A stretch of DNA of 34,629 nt. It comes from a virus. The notes under the pieces were generated by a model. It saw nothing but the letters and a program-made list of their open reading frames with translations, searched no databases and was not told the DNA's origin. The position numbers and the translations under genes were made by a program. Shown here in pieces: positions 4,347 through 30,406 of the stretch; the first letter of the stretch is position 1; each line of letters begins with the position of its first letter. The DNA is taken from positions 1 to 34,629 of IMG/VR virus record IMGVR_UViG_3300029319_000207. The stretch is one strand, 5' to 3'.

Positions 4347-4545
4347 AAAAACCGGTGTCCCTAAAAAATATCTAAGTGGCTCTAAAAATAGGGCCGCTAA
4401 AGCTGCGGAAATAAAAAAAACCGCCGAACTTTATAAAAAAGGTTTATTTATAGATATAAAAGCCGTACAAAAATCAAGGGTTGAACAAAATGTCAACAAG
4501 ACCAAAAGCAAAACCACTAAACGCAAGCGTCGTAAAAGCACTTAA
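4312..4545 (+). CDS. Small basic head-region protein (77 aa)
   Basis: Strongly basic protein beginning MSRKLRRVARDKKTGVPKKY with SGSKNRAAKAAEIKKTAELY, ending in a Lys/Arg/Thr-rich tail (KTTKRKRRKST). The pattern ARDKKTGxPKKY...EIKKTAxxYKxG is one I associate with small proteins of marine phages; its function is not known. It overlaps the upstream 31-aa gene by 35 bases and the downstream gene by 56 bases, both in other frames. It may be an internal head or DNA-binding protein, judged by charge and location only. Confidence 0.65.
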   Translation: MSRKLRRVARDKKTGVPKKYLSGSKNRAAKAAEIKKTAELYKKGLFIDIKAVQKSRVEQNVNKTKSKTTKRKRRKST

Positions 4546-4741
4546 AAAAAAGGCCGAAGGCACTAAATTTAAGTACGGCGAGTTAGCTGCTGTATATAGA
4601 AAAGGTCAAGGTGCTTATTTAGGCGGTGGCTCTAGGAATGTAAGTATGGCGGCGTGGGCTATGGGTCGTGTTAATAGTTATATGCGTGGCGATAAAGCTA
4701 GAACCGTTGATATGGCTATCTATAAAAGGTATAGAAAATGA
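4490..4741 (+). CDS. Small basic protein with YRKGQGAYL / WAMxRVN domain (83 aa)
   Basis: Single-domain basic protein whose core reads YGELAAVYRKGQGAYLGGGS, then RNVSMAAWAMGRVNSYMRG. The family is shared by marine phages and large viruses; no function is established that I know of. A second copy forms the N-terminal domain of the leftward gene at 26587-27978 (about 29 identities in 51 aligned positions by eye). I chose the ATG at 4490 over a TTG at 4481. It overlaps the previous gene by 56 bases, and its TGA overlaps the next ATG (ATGA). Confidence 0.75.
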   Translation: MSTRPKAKPLNASVVKALKKKAEGTKFKYGELAAVYRKGQGAYLGGGSRNVSMAAWAMGRVNSYMRGDKARTVDMAIYKRYRK

Positions 4742-5019
4742 GTATTAAAAGGGGTGGACATACTTTTGAAGGAGTCGATAAACCTATAAGAACTCCTAAT
4801 CATTCGAGTGGTAAGTCCCACGCCGTAGTAATAAAACAGGGCGACGGTTTTAAATTAATTAGATTTGGTATGCAGGGTGCAAAAACTAAACCGCCCCGTA
4901 AAGGAGAGTCCGATGCCGATAAAGCAAAACGTAAATCTTTTAAAGCTAGACACGCTAAAAATATTGCAAAAGGAAAAACGAGTGCGGCATATTGGGCTAA
5001 TCGTGTAAAGTGGAGTTAA
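4738..5019 (+). CDS. Small basic conserved phage protein (93 aa)
   Basis: Contains PIRTPNHSSGKSHAVVI, IRFGMQGAKTKPP, and RKSFKARHAKNIAKGKTSAA followed by YWANRVKW. I recognise this as a widespread small protein family of marine phages and some large viruses, with a conserved FKARHAKNIAKGKxSAAYWA segment, but without a known function. It is coupled to the preceding gene by ATGA and closes the basic cluster before the scaffold gene. The high Lys/Arg content and location suggest a head-associated or nucleic-acid-binding role (inference). Confidence 0.75.
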   Translation: MSIKRGGHTFEGVDKPIRTPNHSSGKSHAVVIKQGDGFKLIRFGMQGAKTKPPRKGESDADKAKRKSFKARHAKNIAKGKTSAAYWANRVKWS

Positions 5020-5809: not shown

Positions 5810-6838
5810 ATGGGAGTTTTGAGGAGCGATTTAATCATTCCAGAGATTTTTACTCCGTATGTCATAGAGCAAACAACACAAAGAGATTCATTCCTTGCTA
5901 GTGGTGTGGTCGCTCCTATGGCCGAGTTAAATGCTACTGAGGGTGGTGATTTCGTAAACGTACCTTTTTTCTCTGCGAACCTAACCGGAGACTTTGAGGT
6001 TTTATCTGATTCTAGTTCTTTAACACCTAGTAAAATTACTACCGACAAACAAGTTGGTGTTATTTTGCATCGTGGTAGAGCTTTCGAATCTCGTGACTTA
6101 GCTGCTTTAGCATCGGGTGCCGACCCAATGGCTGCTATTGGTCAAAAAATTGGTGCTTATATAGCTAACCAAAGACAAAAAGATTTACTTGCTTGCCTTG
6201 ACGGAGTATTTGGCTCTATAAACGCTAACGATAGTAACTCTGCTTTCTTCGGTTTAACTATTGACTCCGAATCAGGAGATACACCTACAGGTTTAAGTCC
6301 TAAACACGTTGCTAAAGCACGTTCTATTTTAGGAGATCAAGGCGATAAGCTTACAGCCGTTTGTATGCACAGCAAAGTATATTACGACTTGGTTGAGCGT
6401 AAAATGGTTGATTACGTTTTAGCTTCCGACGGTAACGGCGGTTCAGCTACAGCTAGTGGTGGAACTATCGCACCGGCTTACGGTGGCGACGGTACTGTAC
6501 CTACTTATTGCGGACTTAGAGTAATTGTTTCCGACGACGTTTCTACTACTGGTAGTGGAGCATCTACGGAATACAGCACTTATTTCTTTACGCAAGGTGC
6601 AGTTGCTAGTGGAGAACAGGCCGGCCTAACTACTGAAACAGACAGAGATATTCTGGCTAAATCAGACGCTATGGCGGTTGACCTTCATTATTGTTATCAC
6701 CCCGTAGGTGCTAAATGGGCTGTTACTACAGTTAACCCCAATAGAACTCAATTAGGAACCGTAGCTAACTGGTCGAAAGTTTACGAGACAAAGAACATTG
6801 GTATCGTTAGGGCGACTAACGTTTCCACACAAGATTAG
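5810..6838 (+). CDS. Major capsid protein
   Basis: The 342-residue shell subunit, expected HK97 fold. The N-terminal part SDLIIPEIFTPYVIEQTTQR, the middle segment with EGGDFVNVPFF and LHRGRAFESRDLAALASGAD, the AYIANQRQKDLLACLDG helix, and the late HPVGAKWAVTTVNPNRTQL are typical of coat proteins of this type in marine siphoviruses. It lies between scaffold and decoration genes. The 73-base leader upstream is the longest gap in the head region, in keeping with separate strong expression. No N-terminal delta domain is evident, as expected when a separate scaffold exists. Confidence 0.92.
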   Translation: MGVLRSDLIIPEIFTPYVIEQTTQRDSFLASGVVAPMAELNATEGGDFVNVPFFSANLTGDFEVLSDSSSLTPSKITTDKQVGVILHRGRAFESRDLAALASGADPMAAIGQKIGAYIANQRQKDLLACLDGVFGSINANDSNSAFFGLTIDSESGDTPTGLSPKHVAKARSILGDQGDKLTAVCMHSKVYYDLVERKMVDYVLASDGNGGSATASGGTIAPAYGGDGTVPTYCGLRVIVSDDVSTTGSGASTEYSTYFFTQGAVASGEQAGLTTETDRDILAKSDAMAVDLHYCYHPVGAKWAVTTVNPNRTQLGTVANWSKVYETKNIGIVRATNVSTQD

Positions 6839-25681: not shown

Positions 25682-25943
25682 TCTCTTCGTCGGTAAAGTC
25701 TCTAATTAGCATTTTTTCGGTTTTATCTACTTCATAATTAAATTTTAAAACGGCGGTTCTTATATGCTCTGTAACCCAATTACCCTCGCCCGTTACTATT
25801 TGAGCCTTACCTCTTTCATTCATAAAAATGTAGTGATCTTGTCCTTTTAAATGGACCTCTAATAAATTTTTTTCTAATTTTTGTAGCCTTAGTTCTTTTA
25901 GCTTTTTTAGCTTAAAACCCGACGGCGTTTGATCTCTTCTCAT
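25653..25943 (-). CDS. Hypothetical protein (96 aa), last gene of the early operon
   Basis: Begins MRRDQTPSGFKLKKLKELRL, then EVHLKGQDHYIFMNERGKAQ, IVTGEGNWVTEHIRTAVL, and ends DEEIIAFEKAYE. A charged helical start is followed by a small alpha/beta-like part. Not recognised. Its ATG overlaps the stop of the GIY-YIG gene (ATGA), so it is translated with it. It ends inside the convergent 25409-25681 gene with no visible terminator. Confidence 0.65.
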   Translation of the reverse strand: MRRDQTPSGFKLKKLKELRLQKLEKNLLEVHLKGQDHYIFMNERGKAQIVTGEGNWVTEHIRTAVLKFNYEVDKTEKMLIRDFTDEEIIAFEKAYE

Positions 25944-26590
25944 ATTTCTACGTGTATCTTATTACCTAGTTTATTCATTATATATTTTATATCCTCTTCG
26001 GTAAGGTTCTCGAACACTTCATATTTTAAAACTCTTTTATCGGCAAAATGGTGGTGTAATTCTTTTTCTAATTTTCTATAATCTTCTATTTTTGGACTAA
26101 CTGCAAGTATTTCCATTGGCTTTTGATACTTTATACGGCGTTGGATTTGTGCGGCGGAACTAGAACCTATCTTATGAAAATTTTTACTTTTAACAAAATA
26201 AACGTGGCCTTTTCCCTGATTATTTTTAGCTTTACTTTTTACGGGTGGCGACCAACCGTTTTCCCAACCTTCATCTAAAGCTTGCTCGTTCCATACCTCC
26301 TTACCTCTAACGTATCTAACAAAACCTTTTTGGATAAGCCATAATTTTGCTTCGAAGTCGCTACTGATTTCGTATTGCCTTTCGCCGCCAATAAATATAT
26401 CTGTTTCTTTAAAACATAATCCAAACTCTTTATGTATTTCATCTTCGCTCATACCAAAAAATTTCTCGTGTTTTTTTCTAGTATCTTCTTCGTAAATATC
26501 GCCGCAAAATGTTTGTAAGGTCCCGCTCCCCGCAGTAGTAAAATTAATTTTTCCCGTATCATTATTAAAATATAAACGACTTTTACTCAT
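25940..26590 (-). CDS. GIY-YIG type nuclease (T5orf172 / MUG113-like C-terminal domain)
   Basis: A 216-residue protein. The C-terminal domain (about 127-205) has GHVYFVKSKNFHKIGSSSAA, where VYF and KIG take the place of the GIY and YIG strands, then QRRIKYQKPMEILAV and a later LEKELHHHF with the likely metal-binding Glu. This is the layout of T5orf172/MUG113 domains. The N-terminal 125 residues are not recognised and include WNEQALDEGWENGWSPP before the domain. Such proteins may be DNA-binding or nicking. Translationally coupled (ATGA) to the AcrVA2-like gene upstream. Confidence 0.72.
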   Translation of the reverse strand: MSKSRLYFNNDTGKINFTTAGSGTLQTFCGDIYEEDTRKKHEKFFGMSEDEIHKEFGLCFKETDIFIGGERQYEISSDFEAKLWLIQKGFVRYVRGKEVWNEQALDEGWENGWSPPVKSKAKNNQGKGHVYFVKSKNFHKIGSSSAAQIQRRIKYQKPMEILAVSPKIEDYRKLEKELHHHFADKRVLKYEVFENLTEEDIKYIMNKLGNKIHVEI

Positions 26591-27978
26591 CTATTTTTAC
26601 CGCTAACGTAACAAGGCTCAAACCATTTAAGTTTGCGTTGCCTACGTTTAAAACCTTGACAGACCGTATGCCAATGTCCCCTTCGCCAATGAGGTCGTCT
26701 AGGAATACCGGCTTCTTTTACCTCTAACATATCGGTTTTAGGGCGTAACTTTATAACACGCTCGCTAAACTCCTTACCAATCCAAGTAACGGCTCTAGGC
26801 TTAAATTTTCCCGACCTATTCATTTCCCGTTGTATAGGTATAGTTTGGCTTGGTGGTAAATATTCGATAGTTATATCTGGCTCTTGGTTCATAAATAAAA
26901 TTAAATTTACTACTATTAAAAACTGCTGTTGGTAGGTTCTAGGAAGTTCGTCGAACGTATAGTCTTTACTTTTATTTATCCATAACGGGGAGTTTACTGC
27001 CTTAGAAATATTGTTAGTCCTTATAGCGTTAAGGTTATTCCAATTAAAACCAAACATAAAACGCTGTTTACTTTCTTTGCCTAACGCTATGCCTTCGGAC
27101 CTTATAAACCTACTTTTGGTGCTTAGATGGCAAACTACCTCGACATCATTAAGACCGGTTTCGGTATCTATAAACATATAGTTAACTAAATTTATTTCGT
27201 TACTTTGTAAAACAAAAAAGTGGTTATTAATTATTTGGGGGGTTTTTTCTATTTTTAACTCGTGAATAGGAGTATCTAAAAAGGCGGTACTTAGTTCATC
27301 TGTTAAATAATAAGCCGGTGCAGAAAAGACTTGAAATATCTGTTGGGCGTTCCAATTTTTAGAATTAAATATTAAATTAGAAGCTAATTTATGCCACTCG
27401 TAATAACCAACGGGGGATATGTATTTAAAAAGAAAAGCAAGTTCCGTTTCGCTATAGTTTTTGCTTACGGTTATATGAGGAAACTTTCTTTTAATTTCTT
27501 TTGGGGTTTCGTCTTTAGGTTCTTCTTTTGGCTTTTTTTCTAATATTTCATACTTACCGTCGGGTGCTAAAGAAACGGTAACGCCGGAAGGTAAAGTAAG
27601 AATTTGACCTCCCTCTATACCTATAGTTTGCGTTACTTCTTTTATTTTTCCTTCTTCTCCTATAGTCATGTGAGTTTTTACTTTTTCGGTTACTTCTTTC
27701 GGTAAACCTTTTCCATAACGTTCTAAATAATCAAGTTCTTTTTTTTGCCTTTTAGGATTCTTTTTAATATCGGTGTCTATTCCACCTCCCCTTAAAAATT
27801 TATTTACTCTAGCCATAGCCCATTGAGCCATAGATACGTTTCGATTACCTTTAGATAAATAGGCTCCTTGACCTCTTCTATAAACTTCAGCTATTTGAGC
27901 ATAAGTATAAGGACTTTCTTTTGCTTTTCTTTCTAAGGTTCTTTTTAAAGCTCTGTTAAAAGGTTTTTTATGCTCCAT
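26587..27978 (-). CDS. Fusion protein: YRRGQGAYL domain + AcrVA2-like C-terminal domain (463 aa)
   Basis: The N-terminal domain (about 8-62) reads YAQIAEVYRRGQGAYLSKGN and RNVSMAQWAMARVNKFLRGG, a second copy of the small protein at 4490-4741. A charged linker (about 65-165) follows, including a small beta segment with GGQILTLPSGVTVSLAPDGK. The large C-terminal part (about 170-463) ends with RRPHWRRGHWHTVCQGFKRR and LKWFEPCYV. The PHxRxGHWHxxxxG...R..LKWxxPxxV ending is that of the AcrVA2 family; AcrVA2 itself blocks Cas12a production by acting on the nascent protein and its message. Many phages carry relatives with no shown target, so the function here is open. Confidence 0.65.
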   Translation of the reverse strand: MEHKKPFNRALKRTLERKAKESPYTYAQIAEVYRRGQGAYLSKGNRNVSMAQWAMARVNKFLRGGGIDTDIKKNPKRQKKELDYLERYGKGLPKEVTEKVKTHMTIGEEGKIKEVTQTIGIEGGQILTLPSGVTVSLAPDGKYEILEKKPKEEPKDETPKEIKRKFPHITVSKNYSETELAFLFKYISPVGYYEWHKLASNLIFNSKNWNAQQIFQVFSAPAYYLTDELSTAFLDTPIHELKIEKTPQIINNHFFVLQSNEINLVNYMFIDTETGLNDVEVVCHLSTKSRFIRSEGIALGKESKQRFMFGFNWNNLNAIRTNNISKAVNSPLWINKSKDYTFDELPRTYQQQFLIVVNLILFMNQEPDITIEYLPPSQTIPIQREMNRSGKFKPRAVTWIGKEFSERVIKLRPKTDMLEVKEAGIPRRPHWRRGHWHTVCQGFKRRQRKLKWFEPCYVSGKNR

Positions 27979-28315
27979 GACATTCCTCGCAAATAAACTG
28001 CAACGGAGTATCTTTTACTATTGCCGATAAAATTAATATTGCTAAATGCGAAGGCGGTTGTTCATTAGTAAAAGGAAATATTTGTTCTTGACTAAAATGA
28101 ACACCTAAACCGCTAACAATAATAGAATTTTTTATGCGGCAACTTTCGGAATGCTCCGCGATTTTTACTTGCGAAAACATAATCGCTACGCCGTACTCTT
28201 TGTGGTTAACGTAAGTAGCACCGTAATCTTCAAAATTGAGATCAAAACTATCAAGCCCGATAGTTAAATGATCTATAAAAATCTGGGCTTGTAAAGGTAG
28301 TTTGGGTTCTTTCAA
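27968..28315 (-). CDS. Hypothetical protein (115 aa) beside the AcrVA2-like gene
   Basis: Begins MKEPKLPLQAQIFIDHLTIG, with AIMFSQVKIAEHSESCRIKN and GLGVHFSQEQIFPFTNEQPP, then HLAILILSAIVKDTPLQFI and a CEECHGA end. The last motif has Cys and His close together and could bind a metal, though it is very short. Not recognised. It overlaps the AcrVA2-like gene by 11 bases and the upstream gene by ATGA, so the three are probably made together. Confidence 0.65.
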   Translation of the reverse strand: MKEPKLPLQAQIFIDHLTIGLDSFDLNFEDYGATYVNHKEYGVAIMFSQVKIAEHSESCRIKNSIIVSGLGVHFSQEQIFPFTNEQPPSHLAILILSAIVKDTPLQFICEECHGA

Positions 28316-28692: not shown

Positions 28693-28926
28693 TTAAAAAG
28701 AGTTAATAGGTGTAATAGAGTTTGTTTCCTCCCAAGCTAAAACTTGGTGTAATTCATATCGAACGTAAGGTTCGCCGATAGTAGATGCGGTACGCGGGAC
28801 TTCATACCACTTAGGGCCAGTAGGTTCGCCGCGTCTAGTTAAAGTACGCCAACGTTTTACTGTAGCCATACAGACCCCGTATCTTTTACAGAGGTCTTTA
28901 GTAGATAAATAAGCTTGGTCGGTCAT
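28693..28926 (-). CDS. Excisionase-like helix-turn-helix protein (77 aa)
   Basis: The N-terminal 30 residues read YLSTKDLCKRYGVCMATVKR followed by WRTLTRRGEP, the winged helix-turn-helix pattern of MerR/excisionase-like small proteins (LSTxELAxxxGVSxxTVxRW). The rest (VRYELHQVLAWEET) is the usual recognition-wing end. It may control early genes or act in recombination. No integrase was seen in this window, so a true excisionase role is not supported. ATGA overlap with the recombinase gene upstream. Confidence 0.72.
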   Translation of the reverse strand: MTDQAYLSTKDLCKRYGVCMATVKRWRTLTRRGEPTGPKWYEVPRTASTIGEPYVRYELHQVLAWEETNSITPINSF

Positions 28927-29603
28927 TTTAGTTTTACCCTCATTTTTGCAACCGTATTATCTAACTCGGTTTTTTGTTGTTGCGTAAGCTTACCGTCTCT
29001 AAAACGGATAGCTATGTTTTTTTGATGGTCTATTAACTGGTCTACGCTCTTTGCGTTTTCTACGGCGTTTTTAGCTAGTAAAAAAGTATTAACGCTTTGC
29101 GGTTTATTATCGGCAACTTCCGCAACTTGCTCACGTAAAGTTTCTATTACCTCCCCTTTATTTACTTTGGGTTTACCGGTATTAGTTTTCCAACTTTTAT
29201 CTTTACCGTTATAAAGCGATAAGCCAAACTGGTTGCCAAACTGCATAAAGGCTCTTTTACGAGCATCGGTTTCGGCTTCTTTTATAGCCGACTCGTGCTT
29301 TTCGCCTAAACTACCGAAACGCCCATGTCCCGCACCGGTTCCTTCTCTAATAACGTCGCCTATAGTAATTCTAACTTTAGCCGTATAAGAAATACATTTT
29401 TGCTCTTCGGCTACAAGTTTAGTTTCTATAGTTTCGCTAGTCCAACCGTCAAAACCAAATATGCGGTTAGCTTCGTCTATAACGTGCCAACCTTCGACGT
29501 AGGCTAGTTGAAAAGTGCCGGCTTGGTTTCCGTCTCTTTCTTTTACGTTTTTTGCGAGTATAGGTTCTTTTAGTAACTCGACTTGTTCTTTAGTAAATTC
29601 CAT
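28923..29603 (-). CDS. Rad52/22-family single-strand annealing protein
   Basis: A 226-residue recombinase that anneals complementary single strands. The N-terminal 130 residues are the Rad52/Rad22 domain: LAYVEGWHVIDEANRIFGFD with GWTSETIETK, then REGTGAGHGRFGSLGEKHES, AIKEAETDARKRAFMQFGNQ and FGLSLY. The remaining part is helical and Lys/Gln-rich. The ATG at 29603 lies 2 bases after the exonuclease stop; an earlier ATG at 29627 would overlap it. It forms a recombination set with the exonuclease upstream and the probable SSB downstream. Confidence 0.9.
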   Translation of the reverse strand: MEFTKEQVELLKEPILAKNVKERDGNQAGTFQLAYVEGWHVIDEANRIFGFDGWTSETIETKLVAEEQKCISYTAKVRITIGDVIREGTGAGHGRFGSLGEKHESAIKEAETDARKRAFMQFGNQFGLSLYNGKDKSWKTNTGKPKVNKGEVIETLREQVAEVADNKPQSVNTFLLAKNAVENAKSVDQLIDHQKNIAIRFRDGKLTQQQKTELDNTVAKMRVKLK

Positions 29604-29605
29604 AA

Positions 29606-30406
29606 TTAATTTTGTGAATATGCCCAACTAGGTAGGCTTAAAGTTGTAATTTTTTCGGTATAACCACGCCAATAGCTATCGGTATGGCATTGACTTATGA
29701 GTTTTAGAGCATCTTGACGAAGTTTTAAACCCCATTCCAAAGAAGCCTCGTCAAGCTCGGTAACGCTAACGGCAAACGGATATACCTTTTCTACCGCGAT
29801 AAAAATAAATCTCTTAGCACCTACTACTTCTAAATAGTGGGCGGCTTGTAAGTGGTATAAATATCGGGCCACGCTTTTTACAAACGTATTAGGCTCCGCC
29901 CCTCCTTCGCCGGTAGTTTTAAGGTCGATAATAGTATCGCCGTTAATAAAGTCGGTTCTAGCTTTACAAGATAAACCTGTTTCGGGGTCGGTTTTCCAAA
30001 AACTAGCTTCGGCGTGTCCTTTAGATAAAAGTTTTTTTGCTATAGGGTTATTATGTACGGCGTTAGCGACGTTAGATGCAAGCTCGTACTCGGTAGAGGT
30101 TATAGGTTCGATACCTTTAGCCGCCATTTCTTCGGCTTGTATCTTACCGGCTTTAGTAGCTTTACTAAGGCAAACACCGTAAGCTTTTTTTGCTCTATCG
30201 GGTTCTAAAGTAAAGGCGTGACATAGTTCGCCGGCTCTAAAAGCTTTTTTTACGGCGGGTTCGTGGTCTAGTTTTTCTTCCCCATACTTCATCTTGTGAA
30301 ATATTTCGGGACTTTTACCGATAATAGTTTTGCAATCGGTGGCACTATACGCGGGGTCAGCGTGGTAAGTTTCCGCGTCGATAGTGATAGCTTTAGTCTG
30401 TTTCAT
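29606..30406 (-). CDS. RecE-like 5'-3' exonuclease (PD-(D/E)XK)
   Basis: A 266-residue nuclease. It begins ITIDAETYHADPAYSATDCK with LCHAFTLEPDRAKKAYGV, typical of the exodeoxyribonuclease VIII-like family (PDDEXK_1). The active site is ETGLSCKARTDFINGD with TIIDLKTT: the acid of RTDF, and D plus K of DLKTT. A C-terminal YHLQAAHYLEVVGAKRFIFI segment with Gln fits motif IV of this nuclease class. It resects double-stranded ends for the annealing protein encoded next. Confidence 0.9.
   Translation of the reverse strand: MKQTKAITIDAETYHADPAYSATDCKTIIGKSPEIFHKMKYGEEKLDHEPAVKKAFRAGELCHAFTLEPDRAKKAYGVCLSKATKAGKIQAEEMAAKGIEPITSTEYELASNVANAVHNNPIAKKLLSKGHAEASFWKTDPETGLSCKARTDFINGDTIIDLKTTGEGGAEPNTFVKSVARYLYHLQAAHYLEVVGAKRFIFIAVEKVYPFAVSVTELDEASLEWGLKLRQDALKLISQCHTDSYWRGYTEKITTLSLPSWAYSQN

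Follow-up and report, generated by a model that had tools for sequence, protein, structure and literature searches.

The window, by which we mean the whole 34,629-base stretch of DNA analysed here (IMG/VR virus record IMGVR_UViG_3300029319_000207, G000 when records are compared), encodes a 463-aa protein in which a small DUF5824-type domain is joined through a linker to a core of the superfamily that holds AcrVA2 and plasmid FinQ (Table 1). We are close to certain of this two-part architecture and of the core's membership in the AcrVA2 superfamily. For the protein as a whole we favour, with a probability of roughly 0.5, an early silencer of modular build that acts on the mRNA of one protein and would carry an exchangeable N-terminal domain for targeting or tethering.

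The reading frame that a preliminary description of this DNA had placed at 26587-27978 begins with ATG and runs without interruption on the minus strand. Its location in an early operon was also confirmed: the operon holds an Exo VIII-like nuclease and a Rad52-type gene, the start and stop codons of the ORF overlap those of its neighbours, and the structural genes lie on the opposite strand. Promoter and terminator scans returned signals no better than those in shuffled sequence, and searches of NCBIfam and PADLOC with the 463-aa ORF gave no match. The T5orf172/GIY-YIG-type gene that follows the ORF has an exchangeable N-terminus of its own (different in L003 and L006), is missing from L004, and in the window has a weak PADLOC match to PDC-S57. 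Another exchange spot lies within the Rad52-type gene at 29301-29500, where DNA identity falls to 60-74% (L005) and 79-83% (L003) between flanks of about 94%.

Table 1. Positions in the window of the fusion gene, its parts and the genes discussed with it
Feature	Position	Strand	Size or basis
Whole ORF, DUF5824-type domain + linker + AcrVA2/FinQ-superfamily core	26587..27978	-	463 aa
N-terminal basic DUF5824-type domain, residues 1-68	27775..27978	-	BLASTP, phrog_28338; paralogue of 4490-4741
Linker, residues 69-171	27466..27774	-	mosaic; part common to DUF5872-type fusions
AcrVA2/FinQ-superfamily core, residues 172-463	26590..27465	-	hhalign, hmmsearch, fold match 7CI1
EPDI motif, residues 366-369	26872..26883	-	common to AcrVA2 (EPDIT)
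C-terminal signature RPHWRRGHWH, residues 428-437	26668..26697	-	kept in marine relatives
Terminal W-x2-P-x2-V, residues 452-458	26605..26625	-	
N-domain exchange segment, replaced in L005	27601..27978	-	DNA identity vs near-identical phage L005
T5orf172/MUG113 (GIY-YIG-like) C-terminal domain gene, next after ORF	25940..26590	-	4-base overlap (ATGA)
Upstream gene	27968..28315	-	overlaps 463-aa ORF start by 11 bases
Rad52/Rad22-type single-strand annealing protein, same operon	28923..29627	-	PF04098 E 2e-31
Exonuclease VIII-like (DUF3799), same operon	29606..30406	-	phrog_412 E 7e-68
Major capsid protein	5810..6838	+	79% identical to Synechococcus cyanophage KBS-S-2A
Stand-alone DUF5824-type protein, head cluster, MuF-like protein/scaffold either side	4490..4741	+	83 aa

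The C-terminal part of about 290 aa belongs to the AcrVA2 superfamily on profile and fold comparison. The protein ends in RPHWRRGHWHTVCQGFKRRQRKLKWFEPCYV, which holds the RPHWRRGHWH stretch and the terminal motif from which the preliminary description had read an AcrVA2-like ending, and the likeness proved to extend over most of the length of the core. When the whole protein was compared with all PDB sequences (phmmer), AcrVA2 (7ci1) was the sole match at E < 10 (1.2e-4, residues 360-459), and an hmmsearch with the clade profile gave 5.5e-6, which we counted for superfamily membership of the core. The protein also matches phrog_6160 (6e-11), a family that takes in AcrVA2 itself (1e-62) and plasmid FinQ (1e-38). 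We built a profile of the AcrVA2 family from 73 proteins of phages, plasmids and IMG/VR; in hhalign its alignment with the marine cores spans 256 columns (98.6%, E 8e-16), and hmmsearch gives E 4.5e-17. The marine-core profile in turn recovers 91 of 91 AcrVA2-family sequences, 77 of them at E < 1e-3, and with it none of the decoys (more than 1,900, reversed or shuffled) did better than 0.57. The AcrVA2-family set was partly gathered by means of a pattern that includes the C-terminal motif, so that motif counts within it are biased; the marine relatives were found without using that motif, and HWRRGHWHT is present in all 37. The signature H-x-R-R-[GA]-H-W-H followed by W..P..[VI] is found in the 463-aa protein, without the usual tryptophan of HWHxxW, which is replaced in the marine clade (HWHTVCQG).

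Identity between the core and AcrVA2 is about 15%. Once the last 60 residues are cut off, the profiles still align collinearly, but the match is weak (hhalign probability 9%, E 0.004), and homology of the putative recognition part therefore rests mainly on fold and collinearity; outside the C-terminal third of the core, the sequence evidence for a relation to AcrVA2 is weak. We dropped a claim of full-length homology from sequence without fold evidence because of this much weaker match.

An AF2 model of residues 160-463, built from 71 sequences (pLDDT 75, pTM 0.77), has AcrVA2 as its top structural matches [7CI1 and 7CI2, Z 8.2 and 8.0, 202-209 residues], although the alignment behind the model included AcrVA2 relatives, which makes this fold test partly circular. 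The match to 7CI1 pairs positions 24-300 of the model with 1-316 of the chain, and the next unrelated chain scores Z 4.3. A full-length model from 11 sequences of the marine clade only, and hence free of AcrVA2, is poor (pLDDT 46); its match to 7CI1 still has Z 5.3 with 154 residues and falls within residues 190-381, ahead of the motif, and polo-box domains tie with 7CI1 in Z on this model, over about 95 residues. A PDB search with the core model by Foldseek alone turned up nothing significant and left AcrVA2 unranked; the fold match surfaced only in a second look with VIA-align. The fold likeness extends beyond the terminal motif in both models, and the doubt that the preliminary description had raised on this point was not borne out.

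The N-domain is of DUF5824 type as judged from its sequence, without being a member under Pfam's rule: the 463-aa protein scores 19.8 and P0002 22.2 against the gathering score of 25 bits for PF19141, a cut-off that the close relative L011 passes with 26.3. Residues 5-64 are identical to the small head-cluster protein of the window at 32 of 60 positions [53%; 46 of 60 similar; BLASTP E 3e-22], a stronger match than the roughly 29 identities in 51 positions first described. Both the fusion N-domain and the stand-alone protein match phrog_28338 (5e-15 and 5e-18), the former with ORF residues 13-80 on positions 17-87 of the 89 in the profile. The N-domain is strongly basic (residues 1-68, pI 10.6), as is the 463-aa protein overall. 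A stand-alone DUF5824-type gene takes the same position in Prochlorococcus phage MED4-184, with terminase and capsid either side, and small phage proteins of DUF5824/phrog_28338 (for example in MED4-184 and pelagiphage HTVC111P) are 45-53% identical to the N-terminal 60-68 aa of the fusion; they differ from it in being stand-alone proteins of 83-90 aa from the head cluster. The gene after the DUF5824 protein varies among close phages, being in the window a phrog_7595 protein with weak similarity to a DNA-pilot head protein (4738-5019) and in the genome of L004 a DUF6321-looking protein (L214 6957-7223). A resemblance of the N-domain to sigma-factor helices, seen in the poor full-length AF2 model, was dropped as a common helical arrangement.

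The fusion recurs in contigs of several other metagenomes (L003, L004, L011-L014, L125), and it is under purifying selection, with dN/dS at 0.03-0.11 (core) and 0.07-0.09 (N-domain). Recurrence and selection together rule out a sequencing or assembly artefact, which had been considered in the preliminary description, and the sharing of the fusion among phages, which was to be checked, turned out to belong to a broader pattern in which N-terminal domains are exchangeable. Among 53 non-redundant core proteins gathered for comparison of architecture, 9 carry a DUF5824-type and 22 a DUF5872-type domain, the latter being over Pfam's cut-off in L133 and in tandem copies in three proteins; a long N-region unrelated to either type is present in L007/L008, and further cores have no N-domain, with L127-L130 as stand-alone cores. 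The linkers are mosaics common to different N-domain types. Between the window and L005, DNA identity is 36-62% over the exchange segment and 86-98% in the blocks either side: the N-domain alone has been swapped between these near-identical phages. The fusion architecture is general and modular.

The type of the fused domain appears to follow the phage's own head-cluster type, a suggestive pattern that rests on the sequences of about two independent lineages. DUF5824 is the type of the fused as well as the stand-alone domain in the window and in G002, and DUF5872 that of both in G014, G015, G016 and G022, the stand-alone gene (53 aa) there directly adjoining the large terminase. Mixed types were absent from the records compared. 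In one record, G007 (43.9 kb, the part read taking in its head genes), the fusion is present but a stand-alone copy is not.

By protein similarity the phage falls among the cyanosiphoviruses that infect Synechococcus and Prochlorococcus: after KBS-S-2A (79%), its capsid protein is 73% identical to that of S-H1 and 71% to that of MED4-184, and its exonuclease is closest to those of cyanophages S-CBS1 and KBS-S-2A. A picocyanobacterial host, marine Synechococcus or Prochlorococcus, is likely, and these are reported to be without CRISPR-Cas (PMC10820777; PMC4223832). In a set of 84,980 species, the HWRRGHWHTV DNA pattern occurs in 18 genome contigs, every one of them cyanobacterial and nearly all with a picocyanobacterial label; the titles name Cyanobium, Synechococcus or Vulcanococcus for the majority, and the others are cyanobacterial MAGs. 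A scan of genome contigs with the marine-core alignment found no relative, so that the fused form is not known from any host genome, and a tblastn search of cultured phages with two relatives as queries was negative. The gene is absent from the early regions read in the cultured cyanosiphoviruses KBS-S-2A, S-H1, MED4-184 and S-CBS1, and since these have Exo and Rad52 genes without an AcrVA2-like gene, it is accessory cargo. In KBS-S-2A, a gene reading like a metallophosphoesterase lies downstream of the same operon. Picocyanobacterial genomes (L223-L244; Cyanobium, Synechococcus, Vulcanococcus) carry 2-3 copies each of an AcrVA2-like gene of about 325 aa, some truncated (L227 1090-2321 is an example), which is possibly a mobile multi-copy cassette; a conserved 85-aa ORF stands directly before it in three loci (L227, L237, L238).

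AcrVA2 binds the nascent N-terminal peptide of Cas12a (LSKT), leading to decay of the Cas12a mRNA, and is the first prokaryotic case described in which a nascent protein is read and its mRNA destroyed (PMC13131331). With FinQ, the F tra operon is expressed at a lower level, an effect put down to Rho-independent termination at multiple sites (PMC8744291). Because each of them acts on one target's message, silencing at the mRNA level is the best inference for the core, and by this analogy we give even odds that the core lowers the expression of one particular protein in that way. On the AcrVA2 model, a nascent N-terminal peptide would be recognised and the mRNA encoding it would decay; the conserved C-terminal H-x-RR-G-HWH region would act as the shared effector, and recognition would fall to the central part of the core. 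The target would be a host or rival phage protein, and as the likely hosts are reported to have no CRISPR, it is very probably other than Cas12a. The basic N-domain may tether or direct the effector to nucleic acid, to the ribosome or to a protein partner, a role that we assign only tentatively, and it would be swapped under diversifying pressure.

Other readings account for part of these observations. The anti-Cas12a function to which the AcrVA2-like ending had first pointed is not supported, the phage grouping with cyanosiphoviruses whose inferred hosts are those reported without CRISPR-Cas; the protein shares a superfamily with AcrVA2, but at this distance it is very improbable that it is an AcrVA2 orthologue with an added domain. 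It is also rather improbable that the core has lost its silencing activity and the protein is a nucleic-acid-binding accessory of the co-transcribed recombination genes: the position beside Exo VIII and Rad52 and the strongly basic character of the whole protein would fit, but the cultured cyanosiphoviruses keep those two genes without it, and the C-terminal signature is strictly kept.

In T4, N-terminal signals target internal proteins to the capsid, and the N-domain could be such a signal, with which the AcrVA2-like part would enter together with the DNA and act at once. Both N-domain families also stand alone in the head or packaging clusters of carrier phages, DUF5824 amid MuF and scaffold and DUF5872 by the terminase, and the fused type is that of the phage's own cluster, without crossovers. 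However, the gene is placed in an early recombination operon on the opposite strand, with overlapping neighbours, G007 has no stand-alone copy to its fusion, and the matching of types comes from only about two lineages; we consider delivery in the virion unlikely. The same correspondence would also fit an N-domain that acts as a recognition arm and pairs with a nascent or mature head-cluster protein, of its own or a co-infecting phage, while the core silences the head operon; FinQ, in the same superfamily, silences a competing plasmid's transfer operon, and near-identical phages do exchange N-domains. This would serve the timing of the phage's own late genes or the exclusion of a rival, as FinQ does to a rival plasmid, but recognition in AcrVA2 sits in the core and not in an added domain, and stand-alone cores exist; we hold it to be quite unlikely. 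We see an equally small chance for a whole class of swap-programmed silencers, in which the core would destroy the target mRNA during translation and the N-domain would recognise head or packaging proteins, whether its own phage's or a rival's; cyanophages would then time their own late genes or exclude competitors by this means. A modular silencer with a tethering or targeting N-domain remains the reading that we prefer.

The superfamily itself is already known. The fused, domain-swapping architecture, the mention of AcrVA2 and FinQ together, and any mention of DUF5824 were not found in the literature searched, which had preprints outside its scope. Relatives in hosts that lack Cas12a are reportedly mentioned in the AcrVA2 preprint, and this aspect may therefore be known already. 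The presence of a clade in phages of likely CRISPR-free hosts suggests that the mechanism is a general weapon of which Cas12a is one target, and the swappable N-domains form a natural series for finding what sets the target or the place of action. How FinQ acts has been an open matter since 1989, and its grouping with AcrVA2 raises the question of whether it works by way of a Tra protein's nascent peptide.

With AcrVA2 (PDB 7CI1/7CI2; Moraxella prophages and relatives), the phage protein shares the superfamily, the signature (R/K)PHxRRGHWH ... W..P..V, EPDIT and the fold of most of the core, but it has 463 aa as against 322, with an extra N-terminal domain and linker, lacks the HWHxxW tryptophan, and comes from a host lineage without CRISPR. 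The finQ gene of plasmid pTW10590_71 (L025) matches phrog_6160 at E 1e-38, and the C-terminus of AcrVA2 matches 539 plasmid records, most of those named among the matches listed being finQ. FinQ, which brings about fertility inhibition by IncI plasmids, has the same C-terminal signature and silences the operon of a rival element (PMC8744291), but it is plasmid-borne, has no N-terminal fusion, is found weakly by the marine-core profile (2e-4), and is described as halting transcription, whereas AcrVA2 triggers decay. ORF43 of Shewanella phage vB_SbaS_Y11, named AcrVA2 (PMC10846135), is also a phage-encoded protein of the AcrVA2 superfamily, but it is single-domain and far closer to AcrVA2, with 61% identity over the C-terminal 107 aa.
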